A DNA stretch of 64,000 nucleotides, from NCBI GenBank assembly GCA_005954745.1, contig CP040678.1:310001-374000 (forward strand). The letters run 5' to 3'. This document shows, piece by piece, positions 14,348 through 15,627 of the stretch. Source of the stretch: Halostella pelagica. Its GTDB lineage: Archaea; Halobacteriota; Halobacteria; Halobacteriales; Natronoarchaeaceae. How positions within the stretch are numbered: the first letter of the stretch is position 1; each line of letters starts with the position of its first letter. The notes beneath the pieces were generated by a model. That model ran no database searches and was not told where the DNA came from. It saw nothing but the letters and a program-made list of their open reading frames with translations. Position numbers and translations under genes: made by a program.

Positions 14348-14585
14348 GACGCTTACCCGTATTCGGACGCGGTTTCGAGACGCTTACCTCCGCAAGTAGT
14401 TGTCTCTCAGAGCGCACTCGCGTCAACCACGTCTCCGCGGCGCTCCCCAGCGCACGGTCCGTTTGTCTCCCCGACAACGACGGCTTAACCCCCGTTTCGT
14501 ACCGGGTAGGTCGAAACTGTCGTTGGGGTTTATTCTCGCCAGGGTCGTGGCCTCGGCTGTCGCTGTGACCGCTCGGTGCGGACAC

Positions 14586-14594
14586 AGAGGTGAT
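14586..14594 (+). promoter_or_regulatory. Strong Shine-Dalgarno site of the CBS protein gene
   Basis: AGAGGTGAT is complementary to the 3' end of archaeal 16S rRNA and ends four bases before the ATG at 14599. This decides that start over the in-frame GTG at 14590, which would lie inside the site. Most genes in this window appear leaderless, so this one is notable. Confidence 0.65.
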
Positions 14595-14598
14595 ATTC

Positions 14599-15627
14599 AT
14601 GAGAGACCGCGATACGCCAGACCGTCGACCGACAGGCGAACGGAACCAGTCCCAGGGCCGACAGGGTCCTGACCGACGAGAACAACGAGGCGGGCAACAG
14701 CCGCCGAGACAGGGCCAGCAGGGCGGCGCTCCGCAGGGAACGCCGGGCACCGGACAACCGCCACAGCGAGGCGGACAGCGGGGACAACAGGGCGGCGGGT
14801 ACACTCCGCCGGGTCAGCAGTCCCACCACACCCCGCCTAGCGGGACTGGCCAGCAGGGGCCCCGGCTCTCCGGCGGCCAGCAGGGAGGAGGCGAACGGCC
14901 CCAGTCTCGGCCGACGGCCCAGCAACAGCACCAGCCCCACCACGGCAGTACGCATCAGGCCGGACAGACTGGGCAGCAGTCGGCTTTCGGACAGCCCGGA
15001 CAGCAATCCGGTTTCGGACAGGGGGGACAGCAGAGCCAGCAAGGCCGACAGGCCCCGCCGGGACAGCACGGAGTCCAGTCGGGACCAACCAGCCAACAGT
15101 CCGGCGGCCAACAAGCCGGACAGGGGATGGCACGGACACAGACCGGCCAGCAGTTCGGCGGGGTACAACAGCAGCACTCGCCCGCACGGAACATTCCGAT
15201 CGAACCCGTCGGCGTCGAACGCATCGCCCGGGAAGAGGTAATCACCGCGGACCGGGACACGCCCATCGCCACGGTCGTCGCGATGATGGAAGAACAGGAC
15301 GTGGGGACCGTCGTGATCACGGAGGACGACCGGCCGGCGGGTATCATCACCGACCGGAAGATAGCGCTCGCGCTGGAGGAGACGCCCGATCTCACCCAGC
15401 GGTCCGTCGAGGATCTGATGAGCGAGGACCCGGTGACCGTCACTCAGGACGAGGAACTGTTCGACGCGGTCCGGACGCTGAGCGAGAACGACATCCGACG
15501 GGTACCGGTCGTCGACGACGAGGGGACGCTGTCGGGGATCCTCTCGCTCGACGACGTGCTGGTCGTGCTCTCCGGGGAACTCAGTTCGGCGACTGACGTC
15601 ATCCGAGAGCAATCGCCGCGGTTCTGA
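14599..15627 (+). CDS. CBS-pair protein with long Gln/Gly/Pro-rich N-terminal tail
   Basis: 342-residue protein. Residues 1-197 are low complexity, dominated by Gln, Gly, Pro, Ser and Arg, with repeated GQQ, GGQQ and FGQ units and almost no acidic residues, which is unusual for a halophile. Residues about 200-340 form a CBS pair (DRDTPIATVVAMM...GTVVITEDDRPAGIITDRK and TLSENDIRRVPVVDD...GILSLDDVL), a module that usually binds adenine nucleotides. The tail should be intrinsically disordered; a role in condensate formation or binding a surface is speculation. The family-A element starts on the base after its stop codon. Confidence 0.9.
   Translation: MRDRDTPDRRPTGERNQSQGRQGPDRREQRGGQQPPRQGQQGGAPQGTPGTGQPPQRGGQRGQQGGGYTPPGQQSHHTPPSGTGQQGPRLSGGQQGGGERPQSRPTAQQQHQPHHGSTHQAGQTGQQSAFGQPGQQSGFGQGGQQSQQGRQAPPGQHGVQSGPTSQQSGGQQAGQGMARTQTGQQFGGVQQQHSPARNIPIEPVGVERIAREEVITADRDTPIATVVAMMEEQDVGTVVITEDDRPAGIITDRKIALALEETPDLTQRSVEDLMSEDPVTVTQDEELFDAVRTLSENDIRRVPVVDDEGTLSGILSLDDVLVVLSGELSSATDVIREQSPRF

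Follow-up and report, generated by a model that had tools for sequence, protein, structure and literature searches.

Halophile proteins usually remain soluble in molar salt by means of acidic surfaces. In the stretch of 64,000 nucleotides from Halostella pelagica that was analysed here (the window), one gene encodes a CBS-pair protein with a long N-terminal chain that is nearly free of acidic residues, which raises the question of whether this chain is a selected part of the protein and what it could contribute. A sequence-only reading of the locus had described a CBS module fused to a Q/G/P-rich disordered segment of about 200 residues (the arm), and this is confirmed by the open reading frame, Pfam, the amino acid composition and an AlphaFold2 model. 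The gene starts with an ATG at 14599 and encodes 342 amino acids; its stop codon ends at 15627. Gene and arm are arranged as follows:

14599..15627, + strand: whole gene for a CBS-pair protein with a predicted disordered N-terminal arm, 342 amino acids, stop included (open reading frame and translation)
14599..15198, + strand: N-terminal arm, residues 1-200, Q/G/P/R-rich, Lys-free and predicted to be disordered (composition, AlphaFold2, dN/dS)
14961..15032, + strand: tandem repeat with a 27-nt (9-residue) unit in 2.7 copies, GQxGQQSxF type (Tandem Repeats Finder)

Within residues 1-200, Q contributes 26%, G 23%, P 12%, R 9% and N 1%; Lys is absent, and only four aromatic (2%) and four aliphatic residues are present. 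The arm is indeed almost devoid of acidic residues, with seven D/E in total, six within the first 30 residues and a single one beyond residue 30. As a background, 721 genes were predicted with a simple gene predictor from 864 kb (~22%) of the same genome, and their mean D+E content is 17%; elsewhere in this sample, windows without D/E correspond to membrane segments or to frames of doubtful validity. The densest 100-residue window contains 33 Q in the CBS-arm gene and 17 in the runner-up gene, with a median of 4 over the sample. A whole-genome search with the arm revealed no second copy in H. pelagica. The GQQ-type repeats were also verified, because GQQ occurs 11 times versus 3.1 times expected (3.6-fold), a number that was reached by none of 5000 shuffles of the same composition; part of this excess is underlain by the 27-nt tandem repeat. 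In the AlphaFold2 model, built with 13 aligned relatives as input, residues 1-200 lack secondary structure and pLDDT per 10-residue block ranges from 39 to 55; this agrees with disorder of the arm without being proof of it. Acidic proteins of halophiles, a class to which the arm does not belong, are called disordered too often by published predictors (PMC6384707).

The proposed prion-like nature of the arm fared less well. Like the eukaryotic prion-like domains of the FUS type, the arm is Q/G-rich, of low complexity, predicted to be disordered and of low charge, but it differs from them by its low N (1%) and Y+F (2%) content, by 12% P and by the presence of R. In addition, Q drops to 9% and 14% in the arms of two congeners (G002 and G003, respectively), where D/E reach about 9-10% (18-21 acidic residues). 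Q+N amounts to 27% in the arm of the window, 11-17% in these two congeners and 19-43% in the other members. Prion-like thus appears to be a weak label on compositional grounds, and Q-richness is not the conserved trait, even inside the genus. The RGG/RG class of RNA-binding proteins, which is defined by multiple RGG/RG repeats, was considered and rejected, because the arm contains two RGG and three RG per 200 residues; 0-3 RGG were counted across 13 arms.

The distribution of the arm was determined with a profile of the CBS part, which was run against 392 genomes of the order and gave 22 matches with E values of at most 4.5e-51. Of these, 21 are armed, and G275 is the sole arm-less member of this top-scoring set; since the best ten candidates per genome were scored, the order contains at least 21 armed members. 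Absence of the tail from all orthologues, named in the sequence-only reading as a refutation, is therefore not what is observed. The armed members fall into five family-level groups (f1, f4, f5, f7 and f17), their genes are often located on megaplasmids, and no further member was detected at a strict cut-off in a phylum-wide sample of 295 genomes. Pooled over all arms (3720 residues), the composition is 27% Q, 18% G, 15% P, 9% R, 0.2% K and about 2% I+L+V+C; the net charge is positive in 20 of 21 arms, and arm lengths range from 100 to 275 residues. At the sequence level, these comparisons demonstrate that it is the composition (Q/G/P/R-rich, Lys-poor, with few acidic and hydrophobic residues) that is conserved, and neither the sequence nor the length.

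Nei-Gojobori estimates for four pairs gave dN/dS values of 0.23, 0.29, 0.35 (the comparison with G001) and 0.49 for the arm and of 0.15-0.40 for the CBS part. Reliable values are those of the two closest pairs (77-79% identity; arm 0.23-0.29), while the distant pairs suffer from uncertain alignments. Codon comparisons thus demonstrate purifying selection on the arm. A frame artefact was rejected as the origin of the arm, because arm and CBS pair share one reading frame in 21 genomes and because of this selection; in the orthologues on NZ_CP100405.1 and NZ_CP134951.1 the architecture is the same and the annotated CDS includes the arm. In a tree of the CBS pair, the unconstrained topology needs four changes of arm state, but the AU test does not reject one armed clade (p 0.195). 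Public annotation describes the members only as 'CBS domain-containing protein', and literature searches retrieved no description of an arm of this kind on a haloarchaeal CBS protein. The armed CBS proteins are a real, selected and little-noticed subfamily, in which a known domain is combined with an unusual partner.

The known domain is a single CBS pair at residues of about 205-325 (two Pfam matches, E 3e-25, 88.7 bits in all). Residues 1-200 contain no further Pfam match, and the C terminus ends right after the pair:

15214..15378, + strand: CBS domain 1 (PF00571, E 9.6e-10, G000:C1:325214-325378)
15340-15360, + strand: signature GIITDRK of CBS domain 1, in which the usual Asp is missing (motif table)
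15406..15573, + strand: CBS domain 2, residues 270-325 (PF00571, E 2.9e-16, G000:C1:325406-325573)
15535-15555, + strand: signature GILSLDD of CBS domain 2, intact (motif table)

In the AlphaFold2 model, residues 201-330 fold as a CBS pair with pLDDT values of mostly 83-93, and the best structural match in the PDB is MJ0922 (2p9m; Z 19.4 over 126 residues). Ordinary CBS pairs follow at Z 17-19, several of them with a bound ligand, such as AcuB with AMP/ADP, the plant protein CBSX2 with AMP and MJ0100 with SAM; DarB was matched as well. The stand-alone proteins among these (MJ0922; ST2348, 2ef7, E 1.9e-28; CBSX2, 4gqy; Bacillus subtilis DarB, 6yj7; AcuB, 9s4v) consist of the same single pair with the same fold over about 125 residues, but their matches cover residues 197-336 only and never the arm, and the Halostella protein differs by the loss of the CBS1 Asp. 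As judged from the model, a shared fold alone does not identify the ligand. A ligand motif of the form G-h-x-S/T-x-x-D was sought in each CBS domain. In CBS1 of all 21 armed members, TDR or SDR is followed by K, H, T, S or R instead of D, whereas the S/T-x-D-D motif of CBS2 is intact in all of them. At most one canonical ligand site per chain is therefore probable. The loss is not unique to the armed subfamily, because the CBS1 Asp is also missing in some arm-less haloarchaeal CBS-pair paralogues. These are about 140-150 amino acids long, are ~40-48% identical within the CBS pair and also end in a QSPRY/F-type C terminus, but lack the arm, and some of them retain TDRD/TDRE in CBS1.

The sequence-only reading had also emphasized the position of the gene within a cluster of translation factors. 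The gene indeed lies close to EF-2 and EF-1A, and this position is kept in four congeners (here and below, the window's own genome and three others), which share the gene order EF-2, CBS-arm gene, ACT protein, HSD and EF-1A. In four genomes of sister genera (G005-G008), however, EF-2, ACT and HSD adjoin without a CBS-arm gene, so that the EF-2-ACT-HSD-EF-1A cluster of other genera in the family lacks it, and neither EF-2 nor EF-1A was found within about 7 kb of the 17 loci outside the genus, two of which are short at one side. Instead, unrelated genes are found there, such as topoisomerase and PcrB in f17, TrkA in G007, and on f4 replicons genes for regulators and for proteins resembling ferritin or rubredoxin. 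The translation neighbourhood thus results from an insertion at the level of the genus and provides weak evidence for a function, and a functional link to translation was rejected on the basis of the 17 loci and the four sister-genus clusters. Nothing can be concluded from the absence of the gene in the congener G004, whose assembly (89% complete) lacks the ACT gene too.

Several genes recur around the locus. On five f4 megaplasmid loci (L155, L156, L160, L162 and L163), genes for HalOD1, DUF7130 rubredoxin-like, ferritin-like and HTH_10 proteins are repeatedly present. In four genomes from two families, a conserved multi-pass membrane protein of 119 amino acids without Pfam match adjoins the CBS-arm gene:

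L153:6910-7266, L154:7851-8207, L159:8314-8670 and L166:7004-7360: loci of the 119-amino acid membrane protein

Between EF-2 and the ACT gene, G008 encodes a 371-amino acid IMPDH/GMP-reductase-like protein without CBS domains (L219:261-1376), and by match an IMPDH-like, CBS-less protein occupies this slot in G007 as well. The relative in the Halostella genome is located elsewhere (G000:C1:554340-555446, L223) and contains one in-frame TAG in the matched stretch, so that it could be a pseudogene or a match that overruns the stop.

What the arm might do is best captured by a mechanism in which the CBS dimer displays two multivalent disordered arms, the contacts of which depend on the ligand state. 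We give this reading a probability of roughly 0.35; it goes beyond sequence, predicted fold, conservation and selection to what we infer from them. The CBS pair would dimerise into the disc that is usual for such pairs, and the site around the intact CBS2 motif would bind a ligand, probably an adenosine compound. From this dimer, the two arms would project and engage in weak multivalent contacts, either between themselves or to partners (nucleic acid, ribosomes or acidic proteins), and the ligand state would alter dimer geometry and thereby the valency or exposure of the arms. As molar KCl screens charge, contacts would be made via the side chains of Arg, Gln, Gly and Pro and via the backbone rather than by salt bridges, and the outcome could be visible condensates or merely small complexes. 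In favor of this mechanism we count the occurrence of 21 armed relatives in five groups, arm dN/dS values of 0.23-0.49, the predicted disorder, a GQQ periodicity above that given by composition, a CBS fold close to that of ligand-binding pairs and the CBS2 motif in all 21 members. At high salt, peptides rich in arginine, but not those rich in lysine, phase-separate again and need no aromatic partners (PMC9705477), and FUS and other proteins do so above 1.5 M KCl (PMC7889641). By analogy, multivalent assembly or condensation at molar salt is physically possible, and the near absence of Lys from the arms fits this preference for Arg over Lys. The Arg content of the published peptides is, however, far above the 9% of the arms. 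Scarce aromatic and aliphatic residues in the sequence also argue against strong self-association of the arm, the chemistry of interaction is not strictly preserved, as the G002 and G003 arms combine 18-21 acidic residues with little Q, and the loss of the CBS1 Asp could reduce or alter ligand binding. The stronger proposal, that a ligand-sensing CBS dimer reversibly drives the Lys-free Q/G/P/R arm into condensates in molar KCl, is unlikely; if true, it would represent an archaeal condensate that is switched by energy or ligand and built on salt-driven instead of charge-driven contacts.

Ranking close behind the multivalent-arm mechanism is the possibility that the arm is a protective, hydrophilin-like chain, i.e., an extremely hydrophilic Gly-rich segment that holds water, maintains the solubility of the protein or shields partners during desiccation or salt stress, while the CBS pair serves as dimeric anchor or stress sensor and specific arm contacts are unnecessary. 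With 15.2% Gly and a GRAVY of -1.08 for the whole protein (-1.76 for the arm), the Halostella protein lies within the limits used for hydrophilins (Gly > 6%, GRAVY < -1; PMC4190154). The conserved composition with a drifting sequence also suits such a role, and several megaplasmid copies outside the genus are located near genes for ferritin-like, rubredoxin-like, HalOD1, HTH_10 and universal stress proteins or for trehalose synthesis. Yet the protein differs from hydrophilins by its fusion to a folded ligand-sensing pair, and GRAVY of the whole protein is above -1 in 16 of the 21 relatives. The GQQ repeats exceed what composition requires, and Lys is nearly absent although it would be usable in a hydrophilic spacer. 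Somewhat more doubtful is a tethering arm, in which short motifs or the conserved N-terminal start (e.g., MRDxxTPDRR in the genus) dock onto one specific partner (a transcription regulator or a membrane protein, for instance), with the remainder acting as linker and the CBS pair making docking ligand-dependent. Charged motifs with D/P/R persist at the start of nearly all arms, in contrast to the drifting middle, MRDxxTxDRR is conserved within the genus, YTPPGQQSHH is common to G000 and G001, the 119-amino acid membrane protein adjoins four loci, and HTH_10-type regulators are recurrent nearby. These observations are countered by the lack of any motif common to all 21 arms and by neighbours that are not kept across families.

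That the arm is a functionless, nearly neutral extension driven by repeats is improbable. Its rapid turnover through indels and repeats, its variable length and its unsteady Q content within the genus would be explained, but the dN/dS of 0.23-0.29 in the two closest pairs already disfavors neutrality, the same composition recurs across five family-level groups (21 genomes), G275 being the only arm-less member of the top set, and a useless acid-free chain would be costly in a halophile proteome with 17% D+E. Least likely by far is a ribosome-associated energy sensor or hibernation factor of the HibA/Dri type. These proteins are likewise archaeal and contain CBS domains, the CBS module of HibA binds AMP (PMC13324472), PDB entries matched by sequence include CBS domains from hibernation factors (9sr9, 9znf, 9zni and 9e6q), and the basic arm and the position beside EF-2/EF-1A in four congeners would suit this role. 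However, HibA/Dri modules comprise four CBS motifs (PMC13324472), and HibA carries an HPF/RaiA domain and Dri a second CBS module, whereas the Halostella protein has two CBS motifs, a disordered arm and neither of these parts, which rules out its assignment to HibA/Dri. Moreover, no tie to translation genes is seen at the loci outside the genus, and the same genome encodes another protein that has four CBS motifs, the length of HibA and a C-terminal extension. This 408-amino acid protein (L199:16371-17594), in which Pfam recognizes CBS domains alone, is likely a HibA orthologue.

The sequence-only reading is hence partly supported: its description of the protein is right, but its prion, energy-sensing and translation interpretations are each weaker than stated. 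With its selected, nearly acid-free and Lys-free chain, which several families have retained next to a ligand-sensing pair, the protein is a test case for disordered regions in a molar-salt cytoplasm, and the arm family likewise allows testing whether condensates work under these conditions.

The upstream region contains elements that could direct expression of the gene:

14487..14524, no strand assigned: imperfect inverted repeat AACCCCCGTTTCG / CGAAACTGTCGTT, directly 5' of the TATA-like box
14529..14534, + strand: TATA-like box TTTATT in the block GGGGTTTATTC, invariant in four congeners (alignment of upstream regions)
14587..14594, + strand: Shine-Dalgarno sequence GAGGTGAT, 4 nt upstream of the ATG and kept in congeners

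Gene start and ribosome-binding site are conserved in the four congeners, and the upstream alignment shows that the start context GGTGAT-ATTC/GTTC-ATGAGAGAC is preserved in three congeners. Since the four have all conserved the TATA-like block, the inverted repeat and the ribosome-binding site, the CBS-arm gene probably has a promoter of its own. The GTTTCG and GAAAC-type cores of the inverted repeat are largely preserved in all four congeners, and the repeat is a possible operator candidate. A single instance of the spaced CGTTTCG...CGAAAC pattern is present in the window.
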